Shown: positions 4,084-33,299 of the stretch, piece by piece | Layout: each line of letters starts with the position of its first letter | How positions within the stretch are numbered: the first letter of the stretch is position 1 | Origin: Asterias amurensis | Taxonomy: Eukaryota > Echinodermata > Asteroidea > Forcipulatida > Asteriidae | Assembly: GCF_032118995.1 (NCBI RefSeq) | Contig: NC_092648.1 | Coordinates: 2,371,001 to 2,435,000 of the forward strand | DNA length: 64,000 nt | Direction: 5' to 3' | Notes under the pieces: model-generated | The model's input: only the letters and a program-made list of their open reading frames with translations | Told to the model about the DNA's origin: nothing | Database searches by the model: none | Program-made: the position numbers and the translations under genes

Positions 4084-4084
4084 T

Positions 4085-9770: not shown

Positions 9771-9774
9771 TGGA

Positions 9775-10107: not shown

Positions 10108-10149
10108 TTCACACCTCTACACAAAAGTAAGCATACCATTAAAAGAAAA

Positions 10150-10360: not shown

Positions 10361-10395
10361 AATGTAGAATTCATCAGCTTAAAACGAGTGCATCA

Positions 10396-10848: not shown

Positions 10849-10859
10849 TGCACCTTATT

Positions 10860-11380: not shown

Positions 11381-11389
11381 CGGTCAAGA

Positions 11390-14300
11390 AAGTAAAGTAA
11401 AGCAAAATTGGCAACCAGTGGCATACCACCAAAGGTCTGTCACTCAAGTAAAGTAAAGCAAAATTGGCAACCAGTGGCATACCACCAAAGGTCTGTTGCT
11501 CAGGAAAGTAAAGTTGTGCAACATTGGCAACCAGTGTCATACCACCAAAGTTCTGTTGCTCAAGAAAGTAAAGTTGTGCAACATTGGCAACCAGTGGCAT
11601 ACCACCAAAGTTCTGTTGCTGAAGAAAGTAAAGTAAAGCAACAATGGCAACCAGTGGCATACAACCAAAGGTCTAATGCTCAAGAAAGTAAAGTAAAGCA
11701 ACATTGGCAACCAGTGGCATACAACCAAAAGTTTGTTGCTCAAGAAAGTAAAGTAAAGCAACAATGGCAACCAGTGGCATACAACCAAAGGTCTGTTGCT
11801 CAAGAAAGTAAAGTAAAGCAACATTGGCAACCAGTGTCATACCACCAAAGGTCTGTCGCTCAAGAAAGTAAAGTAAAGCAACATTGGCAACCAGTTGCCT
11901 ACAACCAAAGGCCCGCTGCTCAAAAAAGTAAAGTACAGTAAAGCAACATTGGCAACCAGTGGCATACAACCAAAGGTCTGTTGCTCAAGAAAGTAAAGCA
12001 ACAATGGCAACCAGTGGCATTTAACCAAAGGTCTGTCGTTCAAGAAAGTAAAGTAAAGCAACATTGGCAACCATGGGCATTTAACCAAAGGTCTGTTGCT
12101 CATAACAGTACAGTAAAGCAACATTGGCAACCAGTGGCATTTAACCAAAGGTCTGTTACTAAACAAAGTAAAGTAAAGCAACATTGGCAACCAGTGGCAT
12201 TTAACCAAAGGTCTGTTGCTAAAGAAAGTAAAGTAAAGTAAAGCAACATTGGCAACCAGTGGCATTTAACCAAAGGTCTGTTGCTTAAGAAAGTAAAGTT
12301 AAGCAACATTGGCAACCAGTGGCATACCACCAAAGGTCTGTCACTCAAGAAAGTAAAGTAGAGCAACATTGGCAACCAGTGGCATACCACCAAAGGTCTG
12401 TCACTCAAGAAAGTAAAGTAAAGCAACATTGGCAACCAGTGGCATACCACCAAAGGTCTGTCACTCAAGAAAGTAAAGTAAAGCAACATTTGCAACCAGT
12501 GGCATACCACCAAAGGTCTGTCACTCAAGAAAGTAAAGTAAAGCAACATTGGCAACCAGTGGCATACCACCAAAGGTCTGTCACTCAAGAAAGTAAAGTA
12601 AAGCAACATTGGCAACCAGTGGCATACCACCAAAGGTCTGTCACTCAAGAAAGTAAAGTAAAGCAACATTGGCAACCAGTGGCATTTAGCCAAAGGTCTG
12701 TTGCTCAAGAAAGTAAAGTAAAGCAACATTGGCAACCAGTGGCATTCAACCAAAGGTCTGTTGCTCAAGAAAGTAAAGTAAAGCAACTATGGCAACCAGT
12801 GGTATTTAACCAAAGGTCTGTTGCTCAAGAAAGTAAAGTAAAGCAACATTGGCAACCAGTGGCATTTAACCAAAGGTCTGTTGCTCAAGAAAGTAAAGTA
12901 AAGCAACTATGGCAACCAGTGGCATTTAACCAAAGGTCTGTTGCTAAAGAAAGTAAAGTACAGTAAAGCAACATTGGCAACCAGTGGCATTTAACCAAAG
13001 GTCTGTTGCTTAAGAAAGTAAAGTTAAGCAACATTGGCAACCAGTGGCATACCACCAAAGGTCTGTCACTCAAGAAAGTAAAGTAAAGCAACATTGGCAA
13101 CCAGTGGCATACCACCAAAGGTCTGTCACTCAAGAAAGTAAAGTAAAGCAACATTGGCAACCAGTGGCATACCACCAAAGGTCTGTCACTCAAGAAAGTA
13201 AAGTAAAGCAACATTTGCAACCAGTGGCATACCACCAAAGGTCTGTCACTCAAGAAAGTAAAGTAAAGCAACATTGGCAACCAGTGGCATACCACCAAAG
13301 GTCTGTCACTCAAGAAAGTAAAGTAAAGCAACATTGGCAACCAGTGGCATTCAACCAAAGGTCTGTTGCTCAAGAAAGTAAAGTAAAGCAACTATGGCAA
13401 CCAGTGGCATTTAACCAAAGGTCTGTTGCTCAAGAAAGTAAAGTAAAGCAACATTGGCAACCAGTGGCATTTAACCAAAGGTCTGTTGCTCAAGAAAGTA
13501 AAGTAAAGCAACTATGGCAACCAGTGGCATTTAACCAAAGGTCTGTTGCTAAAGAAAGTAAAGTACAGTAAAGCAACATTGGCAACCAGTGGCATTTAAC
13601 CAAAGGTCTGTTGCTTAAGAAAGTAAAGTTAAGCAACATTGGCAACCAGTGGCATACCACCAAAGGTCTGTCACTCAAGAAAGTAAAGTAAAGCAACATT
13701 GGCAACCAGTGGCATACCACCAAAGGTCTGTCACTCAAGAAAGTAAAGTAAAGCAACACTGGCAACCAGTGGCATACCACCAAAGGTCTGTCACTCAAGA
13801 AAGTAAAGTAAAGCAACTATGGCAACCAGTGGCATTTAGCCAAAGGTCTGTTGCTCAAGAAAGTAAAGTAAAGCAACTATGGCAACCAGTGGCATTCAAC
13901 CAAAGGTCTGTTGCTTAAGAAAGTAAAGTAAAGCAACTATGGCAACCAGTGGCATTTAACCAAAGGTCTGTTGCTCAAGAAAGTAAAGTTAAGCAACATT
14001 GGCAACCAGTGGCATTTAACCAAAGGTCTGTTGCTCAAAAAAGTAAAGTAAAGCAACATTGGCAACCAGTGGCATTTAACCAAAGGTCTGTTGCTCAAGA
14101 AAGTAAAGTAAAGCAACATTGGCAACCAGTGGCATTTAACCAAAGGTCTGTTGCTCAAGAAAATAAAGTAAAGCAACATTGGCAACCAGTGGCATTTAAC
14201 CAAAGGTCTGTTGCTCAAGAAAGTAAAGTAGAGCAACATTGGCAACCAGTGGCATTTAACCAAAGGTCTGTTGCTCAAGAAAGTAAAGTAAAGCAACATT

Positions 14301-14512
14301 GGCAACCAGTGGCATTTAACCAAAGGTCTGTTGCTCAAGAAAATAAAGTAAAGGAACATTGGCAACCAGTGGCATTTAACCAAAGGTCTGTTGCTCAAGA
14401 AAATAAAGTAAAGCAACATTGGCAACCAGTGGCATACCACCAAGGTATGTTACTAAACAAAGTAAGGTAAAGCAACTATGGCAACCAGTGGCATTCAACC
14501 AATTAAGAACCG
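11390..14512. repeat. Satellite array of 60-bp monomers, about 52 copies
   Basis: The monomer centres on AGCAACATTGGCAACCAGTG, CATACCACCAAAGGTCTG and CAAGAAAGTAAAGTA. The period is exactly 60 bp, except for 5-bp gains or losses of the AGTAA/GTAAA micro-unit (near 11936, 11995, 12236, 12961, 13566). Because 60 is divisible by 3, long frames stay open on both strands with a 20-residue period (for example plus strand QHWQPVAYHQRSVTQESKVK and minus strand CHWLPMLLYFTFLSDRPLVV). Two monomer types alternate in blocks, AYHQ-type and AFNQ-type. Central monomers are nearly identical and the edges are diverged, as expected for unequal exchange. I treat it as noncoding satellite. Confidence 0.95.
12241..13920. 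repeat. Higher-order repeat within the 60-bp satellite
   Basis: Three blocks start with the same monomer pair, in which CTTAAGAA replaces CTCAAGAA and AAGTTAAGC replaces AAGTAAAGC, at 12241, 12966 and 13571. Block lengths are 725 and 605 bp, equal to 12 and 10 monomers plus 5 bp. Inside each block a run of AYHQ-type monomers is followed by AFNQ-type ones in the same order. Confidence 0.9.
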
Positions 14513-17060
14513 ACATTAGCAACCAATGGAATAGGACAAGAGGTATGCCACTCAAGAAACGACAGTGAACTGACATAGGCAACCAGTGGCATGGCACCAA
14601 ATGCTTGTCCCTTAGAAACGACAATGAACCGACATCAGCAACCAGTGACTAGCACCAGAGAAATGTTGCTCAAGAAACGAAAGTAAACCGACATCGGAAA
14701 CCAATGGCATAGCACCAAAGGCCTGTCGCTCAAGAAACAACAATGAACCGACATCGGCAATCAGTGACTAGCACCAGACAAATGACGCTCAAGAAACGAA
14801 AGTAAACCGACATCAGAAACCGATGGCAAAGCACCAAAGGAATGTCGCTCAAAAAATGACAATGAACCGACATTGGCAACCAGTGACTAGCACCAGACAA
14901 ATGTCGCTCAAGGAACGAAAGTAAACCGACATCGGAAACCAATTGCATAGCACCAAAGGCCTGTTGCTCAAGAAACGACAATGAACTAACATCGGCAATC
15001 AGTGACTAGCACCAGAGAAATGTCGCTCAAGAAACGAAAGTAAACCGACATCAGAAACCAATGGCAAAGCACCAAAGGTATGTCGCTCAAAAAATGACAA
15101 TGAACCGACATCGGCAACCAGTGACTAGCACCAGACAAATGTCGCTCAAGAAACGAAAGTAAACCGACATCAGAAACCAATGGCAAAGCACCAAAGGTAT
15201 GTCGCTCAAGAAACAACAATGAACCGACATCAGCAACAAGTGACTAGCACCAGAGAAATGTCGCTCAAGAAACGAAAGTAAACCGACATCGGAAACCAAT
15301 GGCATAGCACCAAAGGCCTGTTGCTCAAGAAACAACAATGAACCGACATCAGCAACAAGTGACTAGCACCAGAGAAATGTCGTTCAAGAAACGAAAGTAA
15401 ACCGACATTGGAAACCAATGGCATAGCACCAAAGGCCTGTTGCTCAAGAATCGACAATGAACCGACATCGGCAACCAGTAGGCACCAGAGAAATGTCGCT
15501 CAAGCAACGAAAGTAAACCGACATCGGAAACCAATGGCATAGCACCAAAAGCCTGTCGCTCAAGAAATGACAATGAACCGACATCGGCAACCAGTGACTA
15601 GCACCAGAGAAATGTCGCTCAAGGAAGGAAAGTAAACCGACATCGGAAACCAATGGCATAGCACCAAAGGCCTGTCGCTCAAGAATCGACAATGAACCGG
15701 CATCGGCAACCAGTGACTAGCACCAGAGAAATGTCGCTCAAGGAACGAAAGTAAACCGACATCGGAAACCAATGGCATAGCACCAAAGCCTGTCTCTCAA
15801 GAAACGACAGTGAACCGACATCGGCAACCAGTGACTAGCGCAAGAGCAAAGTCGCTCAAGGAGCAGAGTGAACCGACATTGGAAACCAATGGCATAGCAC
15901 CAAAGGTCTGTTGCTCAAGAAAAAGTCAGTGAACCGACATCAGAAAGCAATGGCATATCACCAAAGGCCTGCCGTTAATAAAACAACAGTGAACCCATAT
16001 TGGCAACCAGTGACTAGCATTCACTCAAGGAATGAAAGTGATTCTACATCGGAAACCAATGGCATAGCACCAAAGGCCTGTCACTCAAGAAACGACAATG
16101 AACCAACATCAGCAACCAGTGACTAGCACTAGAGAAATATCGCTCAAGGAACAAAAGTGAACCGACATTAGAAACCAATGGCAAAGCACCAAAGGTTTGT
16201 CGCTCAAGAAACGCACTGAACAGACATCGGCAACCGGTGACAAGCACCAGAGGTTTGTTGCTCAATGACAGTGAACCGACATCGGCAACCAATTGCATAG
16301 CACCAAAGGCATATCGCTCAAGAAATGACAGTTAAGCGACATTGGCAATCAGTGACTCAGCATCAGATAATTGTCGCTCAAGGACCAAAAGTGAAACGAC
16401 ATCATATCACCAAAGGCTTATCGCTCAAGAAATGACAGTGAACTGAAATCGGCAACCAGTGACTAGAGCACCAGAGGAATGGCACCCAAGAAACTAAACT
16501 GAACAACATCGGTAACCAATGGCATACCACCAGAGGCCTGTCGCTCAACAAATAACAGTTAACCAACATTGGTAATCAGTGACACTAATTAGCATCGGAT
16601 AATTGTCGCTCAAGGAACAAAAGTGACTCGACATCATATCACCAAAGGTTTATCACTCAAGAAATGACAGTGAACCTACATCGGCAACCATTTGCATAGC
16701 ACCAAAGGCATATCACTCAAGAAATGACAGTGAAGCGATATTGGCAATCAGTGACTCTAATTAGCATCAGATAATTGTCGCTCAAGGACCAAAAGTGAAC
16801 CGACATCATATCACCAAAGGCTTATCGCAACCAGTGACTAGAGCACCAGAGGAATGGCACCCAAGAAACTAAATTGAACGACATCGGAAACCAATGGTAC
16901 CACCTGTCCCTTAACAAACAGCAGTGAACCGACATTGGCAACTAGCACCAGAAGCCTGTCGCTCACGAAACGAAAGTGAACCGACATTGGCAACCAGTGA
17001 CATGCCCCAAAAAGTCAGTTGCTCAAGAAACGACAGTGAACCGGCATCGAATAATTACTG
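14513..17060. repeat. Satellite array, 119-bp dimeric unit, degenerating to the right
   Basis: Two diverged versions of the monomer alternate: one has GGAAACCAATGGCATAGCAC, the other CAACCAGTGACTAGCACCAG. AACCGACATC anchors at 14686, 14805, 14924, 15043 and 15162 give a 119-bp period. Order is clear to about 16000; beyond that, copies are mutated, with deletions, and fade out near 17060. The array is an older relative of the 60-bp family. Confidence 0.9.
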
Positions 17061-17385
17061 GCAAACCACTAAATGCCTGTTGCCCAGAAATGACAGTTAT
17101 TCGAAAATTGCAAACACAGGAAATACCTATTTGTACCTGGTTGGAGAGAAGCAATTAAGGCAAAGTGCCTCGTTCAAGGACACAATTGTTGCGACTAACC
17201 AGGATTTAGGATTGGAACCCATATTTCGTAAATTACAAAAATTGAGTCCACCGACGCAGGACGCTAGGCCCAGACATGTACAGTGCCTTTAAACAAGAAT
17301 TATAACATGCATTCTGCATAATTATTACAGAGCTCCATTTGTAACTGCGGTTAATATTAGAAGTAATCTTGTTATGAACTCGCCT
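17061..17385. other. Noncoding spacer
   Basis: The last satellite traces end here. No gene or other repeat is recognised. Confidence 0.4.
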
Positions 17386-17393
17386 TTGACTGG

Positions 17394-17478
17394 AGAGTGT
17401 AGCTCCTTCATCATCGGCTGGTCTTGGTTGGAGATCTACTTGAAGTCAGAGAGAAGTCTTTGCAGGTGTTAAGCCTGA
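17394..17478 (-). pseudogene. Exon-like unit copy 1 (degenerate)
   Basis: It begins after a GTGTTGCAG acceptor and ends at AAAG|GCGAGT, where the other copies have GT. It contains in-frame stops. It is the leftmost member of the repeated exon-like family on the minus strand. Confidence 0.6.
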
Positions 17479-17689
17479 CTGCAACACAAACCAACAAAAG
17501 ACGCAGTTTGTAACAGTTGATGTTTAAGACTACCCATCATCAAAACAGTCAAGTGCAGACAAATTGCTTTCAACTCTGGATTTGAAAAAAAAAACGTGTA
17601 ACAAAGTGAAGTGAGTGAAAAAAAACACGAAAAAAAAACACCTCAAATTAATTGTTAGCAACAATGGTTTAAAATAGTGTTGAAACCAA

Positions 17690-18500
17690 GACTTTTCCCT
17701 GAAGTCAATTCAAGTGGCAAGCAATTTTTCTCCAAGTCAAGTTAAGTCAAGTCACGAGTCAAATTTTTGCAAGTCAAGATAAGTCACACGCCAAATAATG
17801 TCCCAAAATAAGTCCACTCTCATTAAGTTGTGACAAACTCAAGTAAAATCAAACCTTTTCATCAACTACCTTTGTTTCGCCCTATGGGAACCACTTCCGA
17901 TGTGTTATTCAACAATGAAAAATAATGCATGAGTTTAATAAAACAAGGGGGAAAAATAACTTTAAAATATACTCGACTATTAATGACCATGCAGAGACAC
18001 AAGTAGTTTTTGTTTTATGTAGCGATGTATCGATCTTCACTGATTATAAGACCAAAGCTTTTGCAATTTTTGCATTTTTGTTTTTTAATTGCCATCAGTA
18101 AAGTTGTGAAAAACTAAAAACATCATCAACGAGTCAGCACACAAAAAATTGTGTGTGGGTGTGTGTGTGGAAAGTCAGGTGACAGTAGTCCGATTTCAGA
18201 CCGTCCAATACATATGGAGATACACCTGCATATGGATGTAAAAACCAGACATGGACCAAAGTGTGGCCACAGTCGGTGGAATCAAACTCGTGATAACAAA
18301 CAATATCGTGTGCGGAAGCAACTTGGTTTTTCATGAAAACATTTGGAGATAATTTGCAAACTTTATATTCAAGTCAATTCTAAACTCTCAAGTAATTTTG
18401 CGCAAGTCAAGTCAAGTCAAAAGTCATTTTTGTCCAAGTCAAGTCAAGTCAACAAAATTGGAGACTTGAGTCCAAGTCACTGACTCGAGTCAACAACAAC
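17690..18500. repeat. Two AAGTC-rich simple-repeat blocks flanking unique DNA
   Basis: Degenerate AAGTCAAGTC arrays occupy about 17695-17850 and 18365-18500. The DNA between contains a short TG-rich run at 18150-18170. No gene is evident. Confidence 0.7.
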
Positions 18501-18964
18501 TGGTTTCTAGGAACTCATGCATACATGTACATACCATTTGGATTGGTGCATTCCAAATATACAACAGTAAAACTTGGAAATGTCAATTGCCTGAAACAGT
18601 TCTCTTTGGGATTGCATGGTACTGTATGAACTGTTTTAATCATTGATCTATATCTCTCTTCCCAAATAAAAGTTATCTTGCAAATAGCATGCAACTTTAA
18701 AATAACAAAATCTATGAACTTGTCTTGATCATGATGTTCCAAATAAAGCTTACTATAAAAGCACTTTAAAATCAAACTGAAAAACACAGTCTGTCAACTG
18801 CGAAATGGCTGTAAGGCTACAGGGAAATGACGATAGTTTGTATTGATGCAAGAAAATGACTCACATTTGTTTTTGGTTTATTCCCAACACGGCTATGCAC
18901 ACTACTAGACTGCTCTGTTTAGGATCAGAAGTAAATATTAAAAGTATTATTGTAAGTTGTTCAC

Positions 18965-19055
18965 CTTTGACTTGAGAATGCAGCTCCTCAATTGAAGGCT
19001 GGTCTTGTAGATCTACTTGCTGATGGGTAGATGTCTTTGAAGATGCTGAGCCTTT
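18965..19055 (-). CDS. Exon-like unit copy 2, open frame
   Basis: The 91-nt unit is bounded by acceptor ATTTGTAG and donor AAAG|GTGAAC and reads KGSASSKTSTHQQVDLQDQP then SIEELHSQVK without a stop. Counting from TGTAG the frame enters in phase 0 and leaves in phase 1; an AG 4 bases downstream would give a symmetrical 87-nt exon (1-1). The family is unknown. Whether it is transcribed cannot be told from sequence alone. Confidence 0.4.
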
Positions 19056-19617
19056 CTACAAATAAAAATAGAAAATAAAAATCTAACAATTTGCAGCAAC
19101 AAAATAATGAAAATAAGCAAAAGTAATTTCATGTAGTCCAGCAAATGACATGCACAATGTAGATCACCAATGTTAAGGAGTTCGTCTTGATATTTTGGTT
19201 GCACATGAAGCTCACTCAGGCTATGTACCTTCCCAAAATCTTTCAAACCCCAAATCTTTCAAACCCAAACCAAACACTGATGTAAATGTATGTACAAACC
19301 AGGACAACTGAATAGGCATTCTGCAAAGAAAACTATAGTTGGAACAGGGTAAAGTTTTATAGCTCCTTAGCGTAAGCACAGAACCTGTCCAGCGCTTATG
19401 GAAGCAGGGAATTCTGTCCTTTCGGCAAGCGTATTTCATGGGTTAGCGGCGGAATTTGGCTTCTGCGTGTGCATACTCCATGTTACTAGGCATTCTATGC
19501 TTACAAGGCTCATGAATCATGTTTGTAAGTGCAGAATTCAGCGGTAAGCAGAGCCATAAAATTGGACCCTGGTCGTAACATGTGTTAATATTAACTGTTC
19601 ACTGTTTGGAAACTCAC

Positions 19618-20107
19618 GTTTTCTGGAGAGTGCAGCTCCTACGTCTTCTTCATCAAGTCGAGCGCCATGTAAAGTAGCTCGAGCCTGTCCAGTGTTTCTT
19701 GTCAAGATGTGTTGATCTAGCATGCCAGGAGCATTTAGTTCCTCAGCGCTGGCAAAGCCGGTGTCTCGTCTCAGGGTGTCTACCGTGTCTATGAATGTAA
19801 GACATCTTCTCCCACAAGAAGCCTTGCCTTGATGAGTGGGCTCCAAGAGGATGGTTGGGCAAGCAACAAGCTGAAAGGGGATGAACACACAGTGCCATGC
19901 AAACTTGAGTCGGTGTTTGCAGATCTCTTCTGTAGTCTTCCGCCAGCATACAGGTAGCAGTTTCTCTTGTGGTCCTGGCAGGAGATGTTTAGGGCCATAT
20001 ACGCAGCATCCTGGTGTAGCAACCGTCTAGAGACTCCAACGTCTTAGGTTGGTCTCGAACAGATCTGCTTATTGCTGGGTAGATATAATTGGAGATAATC
20101 AGCAAGA
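19618..20107 (-). pseudogene. Exon-like unit copy 3, split by a LINE fragment
   Basis: The two ends match the exon-like unit (acceptor TTTCAG at 20108, donor AAAAC|GTGAGT at 19617). Between them lies about 410 bp of a LINE ORF2 C-terminus: CLTFIDTVDTLRRDTGFASAEEL and the MALNISCQDH block, typical of RTE-like retrotransposons, with frameshifts. Confidence 0.7.
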
Positions 20108-20609
20108 CTGAAACACAAACAAGATCAAACGATTTGCAACATTTCGAGTTTCAAACTATGATTGAACATTTAAGCAGAGATTGGTTAAATTTTTGCTTTT
20201 ATATTGACACTTTCATTCATAAACAATTGAAGGTGAAAAATTGAAGGCAGCAGCAAGCTTGCAGATTAATATGAATCCAGCAAATGAAATGCGCACCTTA
20301 AAATACCAACAGCTACATGTAGAAGTTTGTTTTGATATTATGGTTTAACATAAAGCAACCAAAGGGATCTTCCGACAATATTTCAAACTCCAATGAAAAA
20401 CACAGCCCAGCCAACAGAAAACCCCTTAAGCAAAAACCCACAACTCTTCAATGCTGGCCACAGATATAATTAAACATCTTTGAATAATTTGGAAAACTTG
20501 CAAAAAAAATGAGTTGCATTTACTAACTTCTGGTTAACCCAACACAGCAACAAAATTCTTCACAGTTACTTGAGAGCTCTAATAGGATCAGAAGTAGGTA
20601 ATAATTATT

Positions 20610-20960
20610 TAGGATTTGAGGCATTGCATGGTGAGGTATCAATATATATTTGTTTGTTTTTATTTGGTAACATGCGTGCATCTACTTTCCAGGGAGAGTT
20701 TGTTCTTAGAGAACTGTCTTTCTTTATTCTACTACCACGGAGTAGATTATCGGATGTTCAGGAGACTTCTCAGTTCTGAAAAGAACTGTCCTGCTTTTTA
20801 ACTATTACCCGGGCGGATGGTATAGAAAATAGGCTGGGACTACTACTTTAGTTTACTCGATCATAATTAACTGTACTACCGTGGAGTCTGTTCTTAAATT
20901 GGACTCAACGTTCAGACTAGCTTGCTCTAGTCATCATCAGAAGACTGAAGAGGTAAGAAA
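20610..20960. repeat. Dispersed repeat (GCATTGCATGGTGAGG family)
   Basis: It starts near GAGGCATTGCATGGTGAGG, passes CAGTTCTGAAAAGAACTGTC (a short palindrome) and ends near AGCTTGCTCTAGTCATCATC. Other copies lie at 22885-23230 and 57860-58200. An inverted pair of its left end forms the foldback at 47508-47833. Confidence 0.75.
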
Positions 20961-21002
20961 GACGTGGGCCAATTTATAAATGCATTGTTGTGAGAAACTC
21001 AA

Positions 21003-21093
21003 CTTTTACTTGAGAGAGCAGCTCCTGTATCAAAGGCTGGTCTTGTAGATCTACTTGCTGATGGGTAGATGTCTTTGGAGACGCTGAGCATTT
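21003..21093 (-). CDS. Exon-like unit copy 4, open frame
   Basis: Acceptor TTTTGTTGCAG. The 91-nt frame reads KCSASPKTSTHQQVDLQDQP, LIQELLSQVK with no stop. The usual donor is changed to AAAG|TTGAG, leaving AAA|GTTGAG as the nearest GT. It lies in the first unit of the 2.3-kb segmental duplication. Confidence 0.35.
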
Positions 21094-21551
21094 CTGCAAC
21101 AAAAGCGAATTAAAAAAAAACAATTTGCAGCCACAAAAATGTCAATTGCCTGAAACACTTCTCTTGGGGATTAGTGCTGTATGAACTGTATTAAACATTG
21201 CTCTATATCTCTTTTCCCAAATAAAAGTTATCCTGCAAAAAGCAGCAGAAAAAGCATAAAAGAAAAAATCATCCATGAACTTGTCTTGATATCTATGTTA
21301 CAAATAAAGCTTACTATAAAAACATTTTTCAAAAATTTATAAAAGCCGACTAAAAAACACAACGCAGCCTGTCAACTGCAAAATGGCTATAAGGCTAAGG
21401 GGAAATGACTGATAGTTTGTATTGATGCAAGAAAATGACTCACATTTATTTTTGGTTAACCAAACACGGCAAACAACAATTCTGCACATTACTAAGGGGC
21501 TCTTTTAAACACCAGAAGTAAATATTAAAAGTTTTGTTGAGAGAAATTCAC

Positions 21552-21642
21552 CTTCAACTTGAGAGTGCAGCTCCTCGATTGAATGCTGGTCTTGTAGATC
21601 TACTTGCTGATGGGAAGATGTCTTTGGAGATGCTGAGCCTTT
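21552..21642 (-). CDS. Exon-like unit copy 5, open frame
   Basis: Acceptor TTTGTTGCAG and donor GAAG|GTGAAT are both good. The 91-nt frame is fully open and reads KGSASPKTSSHQQVDLQDQH, SIEELHSQVE. This is the best preserved copy by splice signals. Confidence 0.42.
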
Positions 21643-21933
21643 CTGCAACAAAAAAAAAACAAATCAAACAATTTGATTTTCATGGCTCTTTACTGTAAGC
21701 ACAGAATCGGCGCTTAAGGAAGCACAGAATTATGTGCTCACGGCAAGCGTATTTCACGGGTTAGCGGCGGATTTTGGCATCTGCACGTGCATACTCCATG
21801 TTACTAGGCATTCTATGCTTACAAGGCTCATGAATCATGATCGTAAGCGCGGAATTCAGCGGTAAGCAGAGCCATAAAATTGGACCCTGGTCGGAACATG
21901 TGTTAATATTAAGTTCACTGTTTGGGAATTCAC

Positions 21934-22403
21934 CTTTTCTGGAGAGTGCAGTTCCTACATCCTCTTCATCAAGTCGAGCTATGCAAAGTAACTTGAGCCT
22001 GCCCAGTGTTTTTTGTCAAGATGTGTTGATATAGCATGCAGGAGCAACTAGTTCCTCAGCGCTGGCAAAGTCGGTGTCTCGTTTCAGGGTGTCTATGAAT
22101 GCAAGACATCTCCCACAAGAAGCCTTGCCTTGAGTTGGCTCCAAGAGGATGGTTGGGCAAGCAACAAGCTCAGAGGGGATGAACACAGTGACCAACAAAC
22201 TTGAGTCGGTGTTCGCAGATCTCTTCTGAAGTCTTCCGCCAGTCAGCAATCAGGTTGCAGCTTCTCACATGGTCCTGCCAGGAGATGTTTAGGACCATAT
22301 GCAGCATCCTGGTGTAGCAACTGTCAAGAGACTCTGACATCTTAGGTTGGTCTTGGACATCTGGTTATTACTGGGTAGATATAATTGGAGATAATCAGCC
22401 AGA
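21934..22403 (-). pseudogene. Exon-like unit copy 6, split by the same LINE fragment
   Basis: The ends match the exon-like unit (acceptor GTGTTGCAG, donor AAAAG|GTGAAT). The insert of about 395 bp is the same LINE ORF2 tail as in copy 3, with CYTRMLHMVLNISWQDHV and LVACPTILLEPTQGKASCG. The same insertion point in both copies shows that the LINE landed before the segment was duplicated. Confidence 0.72.
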
Positions 22404-22884
22404 CTGCAACACAAACATTTCGAGCTTCAAACTATGATTTCATATTAAAGCAGAGATAGGTTAAGTTTTTGCTTTTATATTGACACTTTCATCTATAAAC
22501 AATTGAAAGGGAAATACTGAAAGCAGCAGCAGCAAGCTTGCAGATAAAATATGAATCCAGCAAATGAATTAGACACCTTACTAGAAATTTGTTTGGATAT
22601 TTTAGTTTAACATGAAGCATCCAAAGGGACCTTCCTAAAATCTTTCAAACTCCAATGAAAAAACACAGCCCAGACAACAGAAAACCCCTTTAGAAAAAGC
22701 CCACAACTGAACCTATCAACTCTACAATGATTGCCAGAGATATACATCTTTGAATAATTTGGAAAACTGCAAGAAAATTACTTATATTTACTAATTTCTG
22801 GTTAACCCAACACAGCATCAAAATTCTGCACAGTTACTTGAGAGCTCTAATAGGATCAGAAGTGGGTAATAATTATTTAGGATT

Positions 22885-23230
22885 TGAGGCATTGCATGGT
22901 GAGGTATCAATATATATTTGTTTGTTTTTTATTTGGTAAAATGCGTGCATCTACTTGCCAGGTAGAGTTTGTTCTTAGAGAACTGTCTTTCTTTAGTCTA
23001 CTTTACGCGGAGTAGTTAATCGGATGCTCAGGAGACTTCTCATTTCTGAAAAGAACTGTCCTGCTTTTTAAATATCACCCGGGCGGATGGTATAGAAAAT
23101 AGGCTGGGACTACTACTTTAGCTTATAGGATCATAATTAACTGTACTACCGCAGAGTTGGTTCTTAAATTGGTCTTTACGTTTCGACTAGCTTGCTCTAG
23201 TCATCGTCAGGAGACTGAATAGGTAAGAGA
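22885..23230. repeat. Dispersed repeat (GCATTGCATGGTGAGG family)
   Basis: The second copy, produced by the segmental duplication that also carries the 20610 copy. Confidence 0.75.
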
Positions 23231-23270
23231 CGTGGGCCTATTTATAAATTCATTGTTGTGAGAAACTCAA

Positions 23271-23361
23271 CTTTTACTTGAGAGTGCAGCTCCTCAATTG
23301 AAGGGTGGTCTTGTAGATCTACTTGCTGATGGGTACATGTCTTTGAAGATGCTGAGCCTTT
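23271..23361 (-). CDS. Exon-like unit copy 7, open frame
   Basis: Acceptor TTTTGTTGCAG. The 91-nt frame is open and reads KGSASSKTCTHQQVDLQDHP, SIEELHSQVK. As in copy 4, the end is AAAG|TTGAG in place of AAAG|GTGAA, consistent with the two being partners in the segmental duplication. Confidence 0.35.
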
Positions 23362-23962
23362 CTGCAACAAAAGCAAATAAAAAACAATATGCAGCCACAG
23401 ATATTGAAAACGGCAACAAAATGGTCAGTTGGGTTTTACCTACATACACTGATTTGTTAGTACTGTATACTCCTGAGTTTAGTGAAATAATAGCTGGAGG
23501 AACTAATGCAAAACACAGTTATTAACAAAACAAGTAAATGTAATTAGAAGGGGGGGTCAAATGCCTGAAACAGTTCTTTTATGAAGTATTGCTGATAGAA
23601 CTTTGTTTATATATCAGTGATCTTTCAGATAACTTGCTTTTACCTTTAGTTGTTTAATATTTTCAATCAATCAAGAATAACTGATGAAAAGCATAACAAG
23701 CAGCAACATGATAGTTTAACAACGACTGTCAAAATAAAATCTAATCTAGTAAATAATATTTACAATTTAAATTTATAGCAGCAACAGTTAAGAATTGAAA
23801 CCCTATACAAAAGGCCCACAACTGAACCTACCAACTGCAATAATAATTACTCACATTTACTTCTGGTTAAAACCCAGCACAGCGAAAAAAATTCTGTCTA
23901 TTACTATTTGCTCTGTTTACGACCAGAAAAAATATATAATACAATTCTTTTAGGGAATTCAC

Positions 23963-24048
23963 CTTGGAGGGTGTAGCTCCTCAATTGAAGGTCGGTGTAG
24001 GACATCAACTTGTGGATGGGTAGATGTCTTTGGAGATGATGAGCCTTT
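23963..24048 (-). CDS. Exon-like unit copy 8, open frame with shortened end
   Basis: Acceptor TTTTGTTGTAG and donor CCAAG|GTGAAT. The frame is open (KGSSSPKTSTHPQVDV, then RPSIEELHPP), but 5 bases are missing before the donor, so the 86-nt unit would leave in phase 2, unlike the others. Confidence 0.33.
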
Positions 24049-24529
24049 CTACAACAAAAGCAAACCAAACAATTTGCAGCAACAAAACATTGGAAACAGC
24101 TTTAAATATTAACAATTGTTTGAAGCTTACATAGTGCGGATAAATGGAGGCACAGAGATGGCTGACAGAAATAGCATGTTAAAAATCAAAACGAGCAACA
24201 CTAATTCGGAGGTGGGGGGGGGCAATTGTCTGAAAACATTTCTCTCACAGAGTAGTGCTGATATGAGTTTTATTTATTAACCAGGTAGCTCTCAAGTAGC
24301 TGGTTTATTCCTTCAGTTTTTTATTCTATCAATCAATTAAAACTAAATGAAGACAATTTTCAATTTAAAAATTACCAACAGTTCAGAATTTGTGTTTATC
24401 TTTTGGCTTAATAAAAAGCTCGCTGAAGTACCTTCCCAAAATTGTTCAAACCCAACAGAAACCTAACTTGTTAACTCTGAAATGACTGTCAAACAATTAA
24501 ATAATCAAATAAATAAGTGGGGAGGCTAA

Positions 24530-24780
24530 TCATCCTTACTCGCAGCTCAGAGCTAATTTGCGAAGGACGCGGCCAGAAAGTGTCCGAGAAGTAGGCTGCA
24601 CTTGGAAACCAGCCACATTTTCCCGAGGGAGGAGAACCGGATGGTCTGGAAAATCCTCGAGGCACAGTGGAGAACCAACGAACAACTCAACTCAAATATT
24701 GCCCTGGCCAAGTATCGAACCAGGGTGACCTTGGAAAAGGGCGAGCGCTTTACACACTAGCCATCCATGCCCCCTGTACA
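24530..24780 (-). repeat. tRNA-derived SINE remnant
   Basis: The minus strand begins GGGGCATGGATGGCTAGTGT (A box) and has CCTGGTTCGATAC (B box), followed by a tail with CGAGGATTTTCCAGACC and CCTCGGGAAAATG, the bracketed-hairpin tail seen in SINEs at 59030 and 60018. Confidence 0.6.
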
Positions 24781-25194
24781 ACACTTACACATCCTTGAGC
24801 AAATTGTAATATAAATTTTAAGCAACAGTTAAGAATTTGTCTAGATATTTTGGCTTAGTCGCTGATTATTACAAGACATTCAATCTTCGAGTCAATGGCT
24901 TTGTCGATTGATACCATGCTAGAAGAGCATGTGAGCAGCCAATTTGTCGCAATTTGTCACTGGACGGTTGCGGACCGTACGACCATGCATTGCCCCATGG
25001 AATCTGGCATACTGCATCGCAATAACATGAGCAACAGTAAACTTGGAAAATATCAATCGCTTGATTATCTTAAGGATTGATTATCTTGAGGATTGGTGCT
25101 GGGATAAACTCCAATGAACTGTGAGTTCCGTCTCTAATCTAGCAAACAGCATACTTAATTAATTTAGCCAAGAGTATACTTCTTGTGAATTTAC

Positions 25195-25282
25195 TTTCTA
25201 CTGAAGAGTGCAGCTTCTCATAAGCCTGAACTTTGACTTCAATTTGAGATTGGGTAGATGTCTTTGGAGATGGTAAGTCTGA
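25195..25282 (-). CDS. Exon-like unit copy 9, diverged but open
   Basis: Acceptor GTGTTGCAG and donor GAAA|GTAAAT. The 88-nt frame reads SDLPSPKTSTQSQIEVKVQA, YEKLHSSVE. It differs from the consensus at many positions and lacks one whole codon, yet has no stop or frameshift, as expected if the frame had been under selection. Confidence 0.42.
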
Positions 25283-26090
25283 CTGCAACACAAACATAAT
25301 GTACAATTTGCAGTATTTATTTCTTAAAAACAATACCTGTCATTCAAACTATTTGTTCCAGATAAAAAATATCTTTTACCCAAGGATTTGTTGTTTAATT
25401 TCAGTCAAAAATAAATGAAGACATTTTTAAAAACAGGAACAGTATGTTGAATTTGAAACTTTGCATGGTGGAAATACCATATGAAAAGGTTTGCGGTAAC
25501 ACCATGCAATGACTATCTCTAAATGAGTTGGGGGTGGTTCTGAAAAAAACTGTTGGTTTCAACTCAACATTTCGATCAGTATGCTCTATCGTCTTCTGGA
25601 GAAAAGAACAGTACGGTTGGAGGAGTTCTTGCACACTAGGAATATTTTGGCTGTAGTCAACATAACCAAGAATTACTCGAGATGTCGAATTAACAAAAAA
25701 AATAATGTTGTTTATTTATTTATTTGTTTCTATTTTTGTGTTTATTTGCTTGAAACAGTTCTTCTGAGGATTGGTTCTGGTATGAACTCTCAATGAGAAC
25801 AAAACTCTAGCAAATGGTACATATTTGCATGGGTTTTTCAAATGGGTTTTCCCCAAAATCTTTAAGACCCAACTCGCCCATGAAACTCTGATATGATTGT
25901 CTAACTACATGCAGACATCCTTGCAGGAATTGGAATAAGCAACATTAACTCAAGATGGCAATCACTTGAAACACTTCTATTGAAGATTGATGCTGGTATG
26001 AACTTTAATTATCTTTCAGCTCTCTCTCTCTCTCTCTCAAACAGCATGCTGAATTAAATTACTTAAAGAGTAAACTTTTAAGGAACTCAC

Positions 26091-26585
26091 CCTTTACTGG
26101 AGAGTGCAGCTTCTTCATCATAGGCTGGTCTTCATCATCTACTTGCTGATGGGTAGATGTCTTTGAGCTTCTTCATCATAGGCTGATCTTCAACATCTAC
26201 TTGCTGATGGGTAGATGATGTCTTTGAGCTTCTTCATCATAGGCTGATCTTCAACATCTACTTGCTGATGGCTAGATGTCTTTGAGCTTCTTCATCATAG
26301 GCTGATCTTCAACATCTACTTGCTGATGGCTAGATGTCTTTGAGCTTCTTCATCATAGGCTGATCTTCAACATCTACTTGCTGATGGGTAGAGGTCTTTG
26401 AGCTTCTTCATCATAGGCTGATCTTCAACATCTACTTGCTGATGGGTAGAGGTCTTTGAGCTTCTTCATCATAGGCTGTCTTCGATATCAACTTGTTGAT
26501 GGGTAGATGTCTTTGAGCTTCTTCTAGGCTGATCTTCAACATCCACTTGCTGATGGGTAGATGTCTTTGGAAGTACTGAACCTCA
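26091..26585 (-). pseudogene. Exon-like unit copy 10 with an internal 58-bp minisatellite
   Basis: The outer ends are normal: acceptor GTGTTGCAG-like at 26586 and a consensus GTGAGT donor at 26090. Inside, a 58-bp segment is repeated 8 times (anchors GGGTAG/GGCTAG at 26151, 26209, 26270, 26328, 26386, 26444, 26501, 26555; spacings 58, 61, 58, 58, 58, 57, 54). Because 58 is not divisible by 3, the frame shifts at each unit and stops appear. Confidence 0.75.
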
Positions 26586-27200
26586 CTGCAACACAAACAG
26601 AATGCACAATTGGCAGCATAATATTTCTTAAGAACAATACCTGTCGATTAAAACCATTAGTTTCAGATAAATCTATTTGTACACGAGGATTTATCGTGTA
26701 TTTTCGATTATAAATAAATGAGGAAAAAAGATTTATTGAAAGCAGGAACAGTATGATTGGAGGATTTCGTGCACACTAGGAATATTTTGGAAATTATTTT
26801 TGTCTTATTTTTTAGTTCAATTACTTAAAACAGTTCTCTTGTGGATTGGTTCTGGTATGAAATGTAGTTATAAGTGAACTCTCTATAAGAATGAAAACCT
26901 AACAAAAGGTACACATTTTCACAATATAAGTCACCAAAAGCTTAACATTTGTCTTGATGTTTTGACCAACCTTAAGGTTTTTCCCAAATCTTCAAAACCC
27001 TACAAACCCAACTCTGCCAGTCAACTCTGATACGATTGCCAAACAACAAACAGACCCGCTTGCAGGAATAGTATTGCTGCATGAACATGACTGATGTTAA
27101 CTTGTTTTTAAACAAGAACAACATGCATTCTGCACAATTATTACAGTGCTCCATTTTGAAAATTGGGTAAAATAAAAGTTAAATATTGGGGGGAATTCAC

Positions 27201-27291
27201 CTTTTAATGGACACTGTAGCTCCTCCATCATAGACTTGTCTTGGACATCTTATGGTTGGCAGGTGGATGTCTCAGGAGATGCTAAGCCTGA
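27201..27291 (-). pseudogene. Exon-like unit copy 11 (in-frame stop)
   Basis: Acceptor TTTTGCAG and donor AAAAG|GTGAAT are intact, and the length is 91 nt, but the frame has a stop at codon 14 where the consensus has CAG. Confidence 0.6.
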
Positions 27292-27540
27292 CTGCAAAAT
27301 TAAAAAACACACAACCCAGCCTGCAAACTTTGAAATGAATGCAAAACACCAAACATGAGAAGGAGTTAGCATGCTGCACGAGAATCACGAAATAACTTCC
27401 GCTTAAACCAAAGCAACAGCATGCCTTCTTAAGTGGCCGTTAGACCATATCTCATTAAAAAAAAATTCTCAACTTTTACAGAGCTCCATTTTGGACCAGG
27501 GGTAAATATTAATATTAGTGAACCTTTCGAGAATTCCATC

Positions 27541-27631
27541 TTTACTGGAGAGTGCAGTTCCTTTATCATAGGCTGGTCTTGGACATCTATTCGTCGACGG
27601 GTAGTGTCTTTGGAGATGCTGATAAGCGTGA
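27541..27631 (-). pseudogene. Exon-like unit copy 12 (frameshift, donor lost)
   Basis: Acceptor GTATTGCAG is present. A one-base shift in the ACA-TCT-ACC region brings in stops, and the donor has become AAAG|ATGG. It is the rightmost copy found. Confidence 0.6.
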
Positions 27632-27641
27632 CTGCAATACA

Positions 27642-28790
27642 AACAAAACCAAATACATCTTGACAAAGTTTGTGGTTTAAACACTACCCATCATTAGTAC
27701 CGTAGAATTTGGTTGAACTTTTCAAATGAAAGAAAAGACGAATAGCAACAGGAGCTCATGAATGCATATATCAGGTTTAGATTGCTGCAATCAAAATAAG
27801 CTACAGTAAAATTTGGTGATGTTAAATGCCTGAAACAACTTGAGGGTTGGTATTGGTAAGAGCTTTGTCAGTAAGCTCTTTATTAAAATGCTTTTAGTTT
27901 TTTCTTAATATTGGTGGTTATCAACAGGCTTGATACTTCACCGAGGCGACCATTGCCTCCATGTCCCCTGGTCATTGCCTTGGTGCTCTTGAAATGCTCC
28001 AGCTGAAACTTCAAATTTCCTCATAGGATGCCCTTTAACAAGGCAAACATGCCTTGGTGCCCTTGCCCTTCCAAAAATGAAGCATACAGGCTTGTATCAC
28101 TGCTGATCACTGCTGATAGACTTTTCTGAATTCTTTAAATCATACAAACATATTGCAGCGTTAGTGCAAAATCTTTGATTCTTAATTTTGCTGCTTTACA
28201 CACAAAAAGGCCCGGGGCAAAATTGTTGTGTATTGACACATACTTGTTTTGTGTTTTCATCAAAGCTATAGTCTAAGCAAGATATGCCGCATTGACAATA
28301 TCAAACTAGTGTGTAACATTAGGGCTTTTCTAGGAGACACTTCTTTAGCACTGACATGACATGACATGTGGAGAAAAATACTTTGCCTCATTCCAGTCCT
28401 TGAAGATTATCCACTTACACACATGCACCATCTGCAAAGAATCATACAATATTGGACAGTAATTAAGACAAAAAAACAACCTGTTGAATGCAGATAATTA
28501 GTGGTAAGAAACGAGTATTCTTTGTGTTCAGCTTCCATAATGATAATAATAATAATCGGTTCTTATAGCTCTTTACACACCCAACCCTCTAGTGTAACAC
28601 TACAGTTCCAGTTTTTTGGCTGAGAAGTCAGTCATGAATTTTTATTTGGTATCAAAAAATATTGGTCAATTGTTGTTTGGTAAATCAAAGCATGAAATAA
28701 AATAACACAGCAAGGTCTCCCGACAGTTACAAACATGTATACCTACATGCAAGTCCTTGGCGTGTAAGTAGCTACACACAAAAACAAAAG
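27642..28790. other. Noncoding DNA with one dispersed-repeat fragment
   Basis: Bases 27925-28090 are a minus-orientation fragment of the repeat whose words are GGGCACCAAGGCCAAG and GGGCAAGGC (other copies at 47855, 52788, 54045 and 62010). The rest is unrecognised. Confidence 0.5.
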
Positions 28791-29170: not shown

Positions 29171-29416
29171 CGTACTTCACCACTCTGGTGGGATGACAGT
29201 GCAATCATAAACTCCATCCATCATTTGCATCACTCTCAGCATTATCAATGGAGATGTCACATGTACTTTCTGGGGAGTGACTGTCTTCATGGTACATGTT
29301 GTCATTAGATTCAGATCTCATCCAGGTCTGATAGTCATACTTCACCACTCTGGTGGGATGACAGTCTAAACACCAACTCCATCCAGCCTTTGCATCACTC
29401 TCAGCATTATCAGTGG
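29171..29416. repeat. Direct repeat of about 81 bp, 165 bp apart
   Basis: The block TACTTCACCACTCTGGTGGG ... CTCTCAGCATTATCA occurs at about 29171-29251 and 29336-29416. The right copy overlaps the end of the DIRS recombinase frame, so the pair may belong to the element's terminal structure. Confidence 0.75.
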
Positions 29417-29875
29417 ATATTCAGATTTTGGAGAATTCCAATTATATGGCAGGTAACTTAATTTGGAATTATATTTCAACCTAGTCATCAGACTCACCCT
29501 GTATGGTTCAACACATAACGGAAGCCTGGACAGCTGTCCCAAACTCTGACGTTGACTAACTTCTCTCTTGTAAAACCTTGGTCTCTGATGAATGACCCAT
29601 CTGATGAATGACCCAGCAGCTTTCAGGATCTGTACTGTAGATACCCCTGCTCGAGCAGCTGCCGAGGTGGCTGCTCCCCTAGTAGAATTTGCCCGGTAAT
29701 TAGACACATCTATACCAGATGAAGCATAGATGGTTCTCAACCACTGTGCGATAGTAGCGGACACCAAAGCATGAATAGATTTCACAAATGACAAGAACAG
29801 ACTGGTAAATTTGTCCTTACCCTGTCCTCGGGCAGGCTTTGTCCTCTGAAGGTATACTTCCAAGGCTTTCACCAC
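29366..29875 (-). pseudogene. DIRS tyrosine recombinase, C-terminal catalytic part
   Basis: The frame contains TIAQWLRTIYASSGID and RGAATSAAARAGVSTVQILK, matching the DIRS recombinase core. At residues 63-66 it reads N-S-T-R, where the family has H-x-x-R, so a catalytic histidine seems to be lost (codon 29689-29687). A 16-bp tandem duplication near 29587-29622 shifts the frame before the expected tyrosine-containing end. Confidence 0.8.
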
Positions 29876-30208
29876 ACAGAGTTTACATGTTAAAATTCAT
29901 TTCTTGGTTGGCTGTAGAATGCTTTGTTGGTTTCACCATGGTTAACACAAAGGCTGTTCTAGTTTTTCCATAAACAGCAAGTCCAAAGCGATTAAGGATG
30001 AACAGCGTCCCGCTGTAACAAGTGCAACCAGCATAGCTGTTTTCAAAGTCAGAAGCCGAGAGAATGTTGACCAACGGAAGCTCCTTCCACCGGAACATGT
30101 GCTAAAGAAATTGCTGATCTATAAACATTAATTGTTCTATGTTGTAGTCCTTGCTGAAAAAGACTGTGCAAGAACTCAAGGATGTCAGCTAGAGGTGCTC
30201 AAATAGGA

Positions 30209-30553
30209 TCAACTTGGCGTTGACACGCCAGCTGTTCCATGGGTTCCATGATGAATTGAACTGGGCATTAGTGGATGGTGTCGGGATGATAGGATGGCGG
30301 CGGACACTTGCTGCGAAATACCTCTTGCTGATAAGGATTGCCTGATAGCTTCCATGCGGCTAACTGCAAGGTTTCCACATTGGATGATATTGGTAGTCAG
30401 TTGTGATATAACTTCAGAAGGGCCAGCTGACGAGGCAATAACACTGGAGTTCTCACTATGAGTTCTAACAGACGTGGGTACCAGGGTTGCGTTTTCAACA
30501 CAGGAGCTATCAGAAGTACTGTGGCCTCGTCTGCAAGCACCTTGTGAAGACAT
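30209..30553 (-). pseudogene. DIRS tyrosine recombinase, N-terminal part
   Basis: It contains MEAIRQSLSARGISQQVSAA, similar to the start of the DNA-binding domain of DIRS recombinases. After this the frame is lost; bases 29883-30098 hold further diverged recombinase-like sequence in another frame. Confidence 0.6.
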
Positions 30554-30590
30554 CTTGCGAGAAGTGCAAATGGGGGAAAAAAGTAAGCCT

Positions 30591-31342
30591 CTAGGTTACT
30601 TTAGTTGATGGTGAATGTGTCCACTCTCCAAACTGTGGAAGTTGTGTGTTGAGAGGGGATTCAAACAGATCTATTGATTGGCAGACACCAATCACCCGTG
30701 TGATTTTTCTGAAGACTTCGGGAAGAAGATGCCATTCTGTTCTATTGTTGAATATGCAAGACAGTTTGTCAGCTTCCATCTTTTGTACCCTCGGCAGATA
30801 TTCTGCTGCAATACATATTTGTAGTGTCATGTGCTTGGCTAAACACCATGTCCATATCTGTACTGCTCTATATTCTAGGCTTGATAGCTCATGAGAGTGT
30901 GTGCCCCCTTTATGATTGATTTGTTGTCTACCCAGATTTGGATGTCCCATTTCTTACTCACTATAAAGGACTTGAGAGAATAAAACACTGCCAGCAATTT
31001 GAGATGGTTGATGTGTAGACTGTTCCTGTAATGTCAGCCATTGCACTGCAGCTTCCCTAGGCAGGCACCCCAACCCTGGAGTGATGTGTCTGTCTGAATT
31101 GTCAGATCTGGAGTTGGGTTGAGAAGGGTTTGAACATTCCACACTCTGATGCAGCTTATCCAAGTTTCCAATTCCACTCGAGAGGCCAAGTAAAGTATCA
31201 ACTCAGACCCATAGGAAGTTTTTCTGTGTAGGACAATCCCCTTGTCCTGTTGTAGGCTTCGGTAGAACAGCGGTGCAGGAATGACTGCCTGAGTGCTCGA
31301 GGATAGGCAGCGGAGTAGTCGTGCAAGATCTCTCACCGCCAA
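30591..31342 (-). pseudogene. DIRS RNase H region
   Basis: The first frame (31034-31342) holds PDLTIQTDTSLQGWGACLG, with the catalytic Asp of this RNase H type. The second (30591-30950) holds CIAAEYLPRVQKMEADKLS and NRTEWHLLPEVFRKI. A frame change at about 30950-31034 separates them. Confidence 0.75.
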
Positions 31343-31374
31343 CTGTTTTGCTTTAGGAATACTTTTGTTATGTT

Positions 31375-31823
31375 CTACAATCTTTTGTTTTCTCCCCTGC
31401 CAAAGTCATTGTAGATGAATTGATGAGAAAACCAAGGGAAGTTAACTGGTGTGATGGGACAAAATGAGACTTGTCGTGATTTATCAAGAAGTAAGTTGGT
31501 CGTTGTGTTCAAGTTGTTGCATTCCTCTGATGTTTTGCCTAGAATGAAGATGTCGTCTTGGTAAAACATGACATCAAATTCCGATTTGACAAAAATGTGC
31601 AGCAACTGGTTTGATGAGGACTGTTGTAAATGTTCTTGGAGCGATTGAGAGGCCGAAGGGGAGACAAGCAAACTGAAACAGACTGTCTTGCCAAAAGAAA
31701 CGCAGGTAAATTGCAATATTCCATGGTGTGAATAGGTACAGTGAGGTAAGCGTCCTTTAGATCGATTGAGCCCAAGAAGTCATCTATATTTAACAAATCC
31801 TTTACTATATTGATTACTTCCAT
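31375..31823 (-). pseudogene. DIRS reverse transcriptase fragment
   Basis: Bases 31539-31823 contain DDFLGSIDLKDAYLTVPIH (conserved RT block with catalytic Asp), and the overlapping frame 31375-31716 contains VMFYQDDIFILG, the Y-x-D-D active-site box. The two blocks are in different frames, so the protein is broken. Confidence 0.82.
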
Positions 31824-32205
31824 CTGGAAGTGTTGATAGCCCTAACTTGTTTAGTGGACAAAGATTTATAATCGGACGAAGCTCTCCTGATTTCTATTGA
31901 ATTAAAAACAGAAAGGAAATGAATTAGCCCTCCACTGAATTTTCCAGTGTGATGGTTTTTTCTTAATTAACTTTTGCTTGCACTAACTCTACTTGAGGTG
32001 CGGAATCCATACGATTGGCAGGTTCTCTTTCCTGCAAATGGTGGCTTTACATCGACATCCTGTGGCCACAAACTGACCTGAGAATTCAGCTGTCTTGCGT
32101 TCGCGTTCTCCAGTGTTGAACAAAAAATACCAGATAACCTGTCTGAAGAAATTGAGCTACTTTTTCGACTTGTCACTATCATTCCAGTTGCCCTTGAATG
32201 TGTTG

Positions 32206-33282
32206 CTACGGGTAGACCACGATGACCTTCCAATTCCATAACTGGTGTAACTGATGAAGAATCGTACGATCTCCTCTGAATCTTTTTGCCACTGCTGAAG
32301 AATACAGAGAAAATCTACTCTTTTTTGATGATAGAGATGCCGATCCAGAAGTTCCTTTGATGACCTTGGAGCCTAATTTATTCGCCTTTTCTGCCTCCTC
32401 TTTATCTTTGACGAGATTACCACCGAAGAAGAAATCCATCGAGAATGCTTTCTTTATCAAAGAGTCAAAACGCTTGTTGAGTATATAGATCATCAAAGGC
32501 ATGTTGGGGAGCTAAGGCGAGGCTATGGCTAACTGATCCAAATAGAATAAGAGCTGAAGTAAAATGTTCCTTCACCATGGCTGTGTCGATTGTTTCAGGG
32601 CACATGGGATCCACAAGGGCATCAAAATAATGTACAAGGGAAGGGCAAACTTGAGAACATGGCCATGTGAATCTGAAAGGCAATCATCTTGACAGACTAA
32701 GGAAGATCTGGGAGGTTATTCAGCTTTGCAAAAAAAAATCTTGAGACAATTTGAAAGTTCTTCTTATCAGTCTGCTTCTTAAGTGTTTTCTAAACTTGTA
32801 CTTGAGCTTGTTGATGCGAAGCTGTACCCACCAAGAAAGTACCTCGTCAGTCACTAGAGTACCAATGGATTTGCGGTGCGGGTTGCGTCGAACCCGGACA
32901 TATATGAAGCCTCATCGACCGCAATGGTAAGATGATCGGCAGCACTGACAGAGTCAACAGCAGAAACATTGTGACTAGGGCCTAGTAGACCTACAACTCC
33001 AGATTCCCAAGTGGTGGGGCTCTGCCATGCTACAGATGATGTATGTACATGTAGTAGAAGTAGTGGGGGTATACGCTGTTGCTGAACTTGAGGCCATTGG
33101 GCTGTTGGTGGTTGTCTAAATTGTCCAAACATGCATCCCAGGCCCACCATAAAAAGGATACACGGGCGGCGCCATGTTGGTTTATATACTGCCCTATAGC
33201 ATTGGGGGGGGGGGGGGGGAGAATTCCAGTGTTGTTGGGCGTTCGTTAACGGCACGTTTTCTGGCAGTGCTGGGGAAACCAA
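32206..33282 (-). pseudogene. DIRS Gag-like region
   Basis: Three consecutive frames (32854-33282, 32465-32683, 32206-32502) lie where DIRS elements carry Gag. Composition is Gln/Pro-rich, then Lys/Ser-rich. Similarity to Gag is weak, and the call depends mainly on position. Confidence 0.45.
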
Positions 33283-33299
33283 TGGCGAGGTAAAGCCAG

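Follow-up and report, generated by a model that had tools for sequence, protein, structure and literature searches.

The subject of this analysis is an array of short exon-like units in the genome of the sea star Asterias amurensis. It lies in a 64-kb stretch of contig NC_092648.1 (C1:2371001-2435000; this whole stretch is called the window), where 12 units follow one another on the minus strand between positions 17,384 and 27,631. These units belong to a family that is spread over 12 chromosomes and carried by at least 42 loci, in which splice signals have been well preserved while the reading frame was lost, and in which exons are better kept than introns in most comparisons, not in all. We put at about one half the probability that the many copies of this family give rise to non-coding transcripts with tandem spliced exons.

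Each of the 12 units was retrieved at E <= 2.4e-8 by a profile built from five copies; nothing else in the 64-kb window resembled them, the next best profile match having E = 0.89. An earlier note on this DNA had described a block of about 91 nt recurring about 12 times over 10 kb in a single orientation, each time behind a T-rich acceptor. Both descriptions hold: in 12 of 12 units the exon comes after a tract rich in pyrimidines and closed by CAG or TAG. The donor that it gave as uniform, AAAG|GTGAA, is indeed the commonest form, and GT stands exactly at the exon end in seven units (u02, u03, u05, u06, u08, u09 and u11), but five others depart from the rule. Read along the minus strand, u12 (27524-27631) has lost its original donor (AAAG|ATGGAA) and the next GT lies 16 nt downstream (AAAG|GTTCAC), a relocation also seen in copy L049 at C1:4.868M; u11 (91 nt, 27201-27291) has an in-frame stop; u10 (26091-26585) has stops and a GT donor one base late, and is expanded by eight copies of a 58-nt internal repeat. 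There follow u09 (88 nt, 25195-25282, donor AAA|GTAAAT), u08 (86 nt, 23963-24048, donor CAAG|GTGAAT) and u07 (91 nt, 23271-23361). The next unit, u06 (about 470 nt, 21934-22403), contains an insert of some 380-400 nt that is the same in u03 (about 490 nt, 19618-20107), acceptor and donor being intact in both. The remaining units are u05 (91 nt, 21552-21642), u04 (91 nt, 21003-21093), u02 (91 nt, 18965-19055) and u01 (95 nt, 17384-17478), the last with a stop and a GC donor, AAAG|GCGAGT. In u04 and u07 the donor reads AAAGTTGAG, a weak GT (GTTGAG) placed one base early. As the earlier note had reported, six copies (u02, u04, u05, u07, u08 and u09) are open in the KGSASPKTSTHQQVD frame; the other six have stops, frame breaks or the insert.

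The 491.5 Mb of the genome (23 contigs) were searched with exon DNA, with the exon peptide (E up to 10) and with a diverged copy, giving 71, 129 and 67 places respectively, all of them lower bounds. Places within 40 kb of one another were joined into a locus, counting all exon-DNA and diverged-copy places and, in part, the peptide places (E <= 0.001), and leaving out repeats within expanded exons. C1 is the richest in loci, with 14 of the 42. The earlier note had reckoned that a unit dispersed through the genome as an ordinary repeat would speak against its proposal. Dispersed it is, yet not as an ordinary repeat: the nine loci that we examined closely are arrays of exon-like units in which splice signals are preserved. 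At each of the eight sampled loci other than the window the profile finds four to seven units, and the composition of the array varies from locus to locus. Over the nine loci it identifies 58 units (u10 counted once), to which checking added two insert-bearing ones that it had missed, at C1:2.76M and C10. These 60 units comprise 41 in six orthologous groups, ten in the insert-bearing group G3 and nine in no group (u09-u12, four at C1:5.49M and one at C10), which were left out of the group tests.

The splice signals have persisted. In the six groups (41 units), departures from the group consensus amount to 742 of 6907 cells in introns (10.7%) and 165 of 3659 in exons (4.5%), while the acceptor AG is changed in one cell of 82 and the donor dinucleotide in two of 82, with the proviso that the cells of this comparison are not independent. 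The exon-like units with conserved splice signals claimed by the earlier note are confirmed. The GC donor of u01 is common to all eight units of its group, G1; in human and mouse, according to the available part of one report, GC donors are commoner in long non-coding RNA (lncRNA) genes than in coding genes (PMC7242645). In G3, spread over nine loci, the exon is interrupted by an insert of about 360-400 nt, and nine of the ten units keep both acceptor and donor around it; exon length is 451-490 nt in the eight units measured. At 18 diverged loci, taken from the exon-peptide matches, AG is kept in 14 (78%), better than all 55 dinucleotides of the upstream intron (mean 44%). The donor is still GT at 11 of these loci and GC at three, GT alone (61%) being level with the best of 50 downstream-intron dinucleotides (mean 36%). 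Agreement with the consensus there is 82.5% at exon sites and 66-67.5% in introns. Both signals are also kept in three more copies (two on C13, one on C2), found with a query that contained these very copies.

The reading frame has fared differently. Among the 41 grouped units there are 21 distinct exon indels, 17 of which are not multiples of three, as against 61 of 72 in the flanking introns; frame-breaking indels being equally common in exons and introns, a protein reading is not supported. We also hand-picked a sample of 34 units (18 places hit by the peptide, seven units from further loci and nine from the window). In this sample, deviation at the three codon positions is 18.4, 14.5 and 17.8%. 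Most of the loci sampled have many units with stops. The present-day repeat protein offered by the earlier note is not supported by these figures, nor are its mutually exclusive coding exons, with six of the 12 window units broken and lengths running from 86 to about 495 nt. Searches with the 30-residue exon peptide yielded nothing in Pfam (E up to 0.1) or in the PDB (E up to 10). No convincing conserved long open reading frame (ORF) appeared in the examined parts of the repeated unit, where few ORFs were checked against Pfam; those that stand out we take to be retroelement-type tails and minisatellite frames. As for the ratio of non-synonymous to synonymous substitutions (dN/dS), which the earlier note had expected to lie near 1 among open copies if there were no gene, its pairwise values among ten window units spread from 0.24 to 1.82, on both sides of that mark. 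Such a mixture, together with that of the lengths, could reflect a coding past; present coding constraint is not seen in it.

That past may have left a trace in the acceptors. The earlier note had suggested that a downstream AG (NNAG|GC) would make the exons symmetrical at 87 nt, and units of 91, 88 and 100 nt, being one more than a multiple of three, would indeed become symmetrical phase-1 exons if this second AG were used. In its favour, 21 of the 34 sampled units are a multiple of three long when counted from the second AG, and in two copies on C11, L043 and L047, the upstream AG is gone and only TCAG|GC is left. Against it, the second AG is kept in 22 of the 34, the first in 28, and the consensus lengths of three of the six groups (G1 95, G4 86 and G5 95 nt) do not fit the symmetrical phase. 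Because part of the lengths fit phase 1, and because of the C11 copies, the family may descend from a coding gene whose exons were in phase 1 and encoded 29 residues each, at the level of a faint hint.

Several observations weigh against the proposal of non-coding spliced exons. Under a stricter pairwise filter on the six groups, G3 being outside this test (54 pairs retained out of 129, none from group G2, whose flank failed it) divergence is 7.7% in exons versus 10.8% in introns, a smaller advantage; exons are the less diverged in only 36 of the 54 pairs, and the advantage comes from G1 and G4, with G6 level and G5 and G7 reversed. At the diverged loci AG is surpassed in conservation by some dinucleotides within the exon (up to 94%), and this set of 18 includes near pairs as well as ten matches with E > 0.001. 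The donor is weak, GC or relocated in four of the 12 window units, and the C10 insert-bearing unit is without either splice site. Gene conversion could keep exons alike, less easily splice sites around freely changing interiors. RNAalifold, applied to 23 sequences, predicted no conserved exon RNA structure. Some pairs of window units have dN/dS of about 0.24-0.6, equally expected were the family coding. The history of the array itself adds to these points. Self-comparison reveals a recent tandem duplication on the minus strand (18578-23420), in which a block comprising u07, u06 and u05 (23,420-21,137) was duplicated head to tail to yield u04, u03 and u02 (21,135-18,578). About 11% of sites differ between the two blocks, and the claim of the earlier note that exon and intron were copied together is confirmed by this three-unit event. 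The exons differ at 17 of 182 sites versus about 224 of 2003 elsewhere; with the exons hardly better off, constraint since then is weak or absent. Over nine window units (36 pairs) exon identity is 63-96%, and their 200-nt flanks are mostly at the level of shuffled sequence, some pairs still having a common flank.

The array is itself part of a larger repeated unit. Directly after it come arrays of 60-bp and 119-bp minisatellites (11384-17063), and the same minisatellites, with further common sequence, follow the array at seven other loci (on C1, C6, C8 and C16). The 60-bp minisatellite (11384-14502) looks non-coding despite long open frames on both strands (225 and 228 codons). The remainder of the multi-copy unit fills positions 1-11383 and continues past the window start to about C1:2361001, so that the unit measures about 38 kb or more at this locus. 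Stretches lying past that start turn up again at 12 other places, mostly near array loci. Parts of the unit recur on several chromosomes and in both orientations, some copies being 93-96% identical over kilobases. At other loci the common sequence also reaches kilobases upstream of the array; none was seen there in the window. What the window does have upstream is an extra exon-like piece (MVHVCKWIIFKDWNEAK, 28381-28431, minus strand) between CTTTGCAG and GTATTT, found again clearly at C1:5.392M and weakly at C1:4.691M (E 2.8). Internal expansion of the kind seen in u10 occurs elsewhere too: at C1:854.2-855.7 kb some 25 copies of the exon core follow one another at intervals of about 50 bp, and L046 has two exons expanded in a similar way. 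An element of about 1.8 kb with inverted ends of about 60 bp has been inserted in the repeated unit (L041:5186-6978); it has several genome copies that are 96-99% identical. Outside this genome, an exact 30-base pattern had no match in viral contigs.

In the window the repeated unit lies between an acyltransferase gene and a D-glutamate cyclase-like gene. The pieces of the former (PF01553 and PF16076, 46943-52238, minus strand) resemble, we presume, LCLAT1; a tRNA gene match (Rfam) is located at 51880-51952 on the plus strand. The latter (PF07286 and PF14336, minus strand) is found downstream, just beyond the window (C1:2351001-2361000, L042). We considered whether it belongs to the repeated unit and rejected the idea: the C-terminal PF14336 occurs only there, and PF07286, pieces of which are found in this gene and at C10:11.60M, is not at the array loci. 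ORFs at 29369-33324 on the minus strand resemble a DIRS-like retroelement; no Pfam family scored above the cut-off in them. Two more, at 10399-10854 and 55755-56089, look to us like C-terminal tails of non-long-terminal-repeat retroelements, an assignment without Pfam support; the former is part of the repeated unit and is present at other loci as well.

The main rival of non-coding spliced exons takes the arrays for decaying segmental copies of a former coding gene with repeated 29-residue exons. Units would have been amplified by segmental duplication and would look well kept as a consequence of recent decay, or of decay slowed by gene conversion, with nothing depending on them. The many units with stops and frame breaks, found at most of the loci sampled, suit this account, and so do the failing donors of u04, u07 and u12, the C10 unit stripped of both splice sites, the part of the lengths that fits an old phase-1 frame, and exons that are not clearly better kept than introns in the block duplication of the window and worse kept in G5 and G7. 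Yet a passive fossil should lose its splice sites at about the intron rate, and the slowness of their loss counts against decay: across loci the splice dinucleotides have changed about six times less than the introns, and they survive both in old copies that have little intron in common and around the insert in nine of ten units. We regard decay as a serious, if rather unlikely, explanation.

A living coding family, with variable numbers of a Ser/Pro-rich repeat of 29-30 residues and a partly broken member in the window, appears improbable to us. It can call on 14 of the 34 sampled units, stop-free and a multiple of three long from the second AG, on the low dN/dS of some pairs (0.24-0.5) and on the open 96-nt exons of the C8 copies L044 and L045. 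The sample, however, was mostly found with a peptide query and leans to the peptide frame for that reason; an exon that starts at the upstream AG is 91 nt long and puts the next one out of frame; and the indels, the evenly varying codon positions, the lack of a Pfam match for the peptide and of a convincing conserved long ORF in the examined parts of the unit all tell against translation. More improbable still is that the array belongs to a mobile element of very large size (about 38 kb or more) with captured exons and spread by transposition. Copies on several chromosomes, in both orientations and some of them nearly identical over kilobases, would agree with this, but no ends were seen within stretches of up to 30 kb each, and among the listed ORFs we recognised neither a transposase nor a recombinase belonging to such an element. 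The clustering of loci on C1 and the varying make-up of the arrays also speak against it.

If the array is made of non-coding spliced exons, it would be the region richest in exons within one of a set of long, multi-copy transcription units. Its short tandem exons would be transcribed and then spliced via the conserved GT/GC-AG signals, and the product would be an RNA with many similar exons. By analogy with the exonic repeats of FIRRE, this RNA may act by binding a single RNA-binding factor in a multivalent manner, or through nuclear retention; the family may perhaps be a fossil of a coding gene. We would go one step further only tentatively, and with slightly less confidence than we grant to decay: across dozens of dispersed loci selection might keep exon-ness itself, that is, short, tandem, spliced exons, non-coding but flanked by both splice signals, leaving frame and internal length free, as the 58-nt and 50-nt expansions and the insert of about 360-400 nt illustrate. 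The transcripts of what may once have been a repeat-protein gene might then serve as RNA scaffolds or decoys, where scaffolds would be multivalent and decoys would target splicing or RNA-binding factors.

To our knowledge, few lncRNAs are made from arrays of similar exons, and the best of them, FIRRE, is a single mammalian locus. The available part of one account (PMC4820808) states that its RRD repeat (repeating RNA domain) constitutes seven of the 13 exons of the human gene and 11 of the 23 of the mouse gene, other repeats being in the introns, that RRD is a nuclear retention signal involving hnRNPU, and that the FIRRE repeats are rarely found outside their one locus. In both cases several separate exons (here 12 in the window, predicted from sequence) are one repeated unit, and in both no protein-coding constraint is seen in the repeat, as the 17 frame-breaking indels out of 21 indicate here. 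By contrast with that single locus, at least 42 loci carry the present unit of about 91 nt. We liken the array to FIRRE and do not file it as a member, since it is not confined to one locus and is known here from sequence alone. SNHG14, with SNORD115 and SNORD116, is described in the accessible portion of another paper as a non-coding host of tandem exon-intron units with 29 and 48 introns (PMC11608373). The tandem arrangement is similar; the difference, going by that portion, is that introns there yield small nucleolar RNAs (snoRNAs), whereas here the exons are the better kept and window positions 17,000-28,600 have no Rfam match at E up to 1. On these two grounds a snoRNA or microRNA host array was rejected.

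Arrays of short repeat exons with symmetrical phase are known from coding genes too, of the titin PEVK type. Tandem exons of about 84-90 nt, in phase 1 if the second AG were used here, make the likeness; a frame that is not maintained makes the difference. Some lncRNAs, XIST among them, are fossils of coding genes. JPX is another, and retained sequence of its ancestor after loss of the frame, as reported in the part of the source at hand (PMC5577775). Here, by contrast, many loci have arrays of amplified exons, and no ancestor was found. The open-access literature that we searched held no report of non-coding tandem exon duplication in echinoderms, nor of a multicopy lncRNA combining tandem repeats with exon duplication, and the titles and abstract openings of the open-access work on sea star lncRNAs had nothing on exon arrays.

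Should the family be what we propose, a single genome would offer tens of members at all stages of divergence, in which the selection acting on splicing and on exon sequence could be measured free of coding constraint. It would also permit a direct test of whether repeat exons act by copy number. Were it mere decay, the family would still show, as a clean example, how splice signals can outlive the reading frame.

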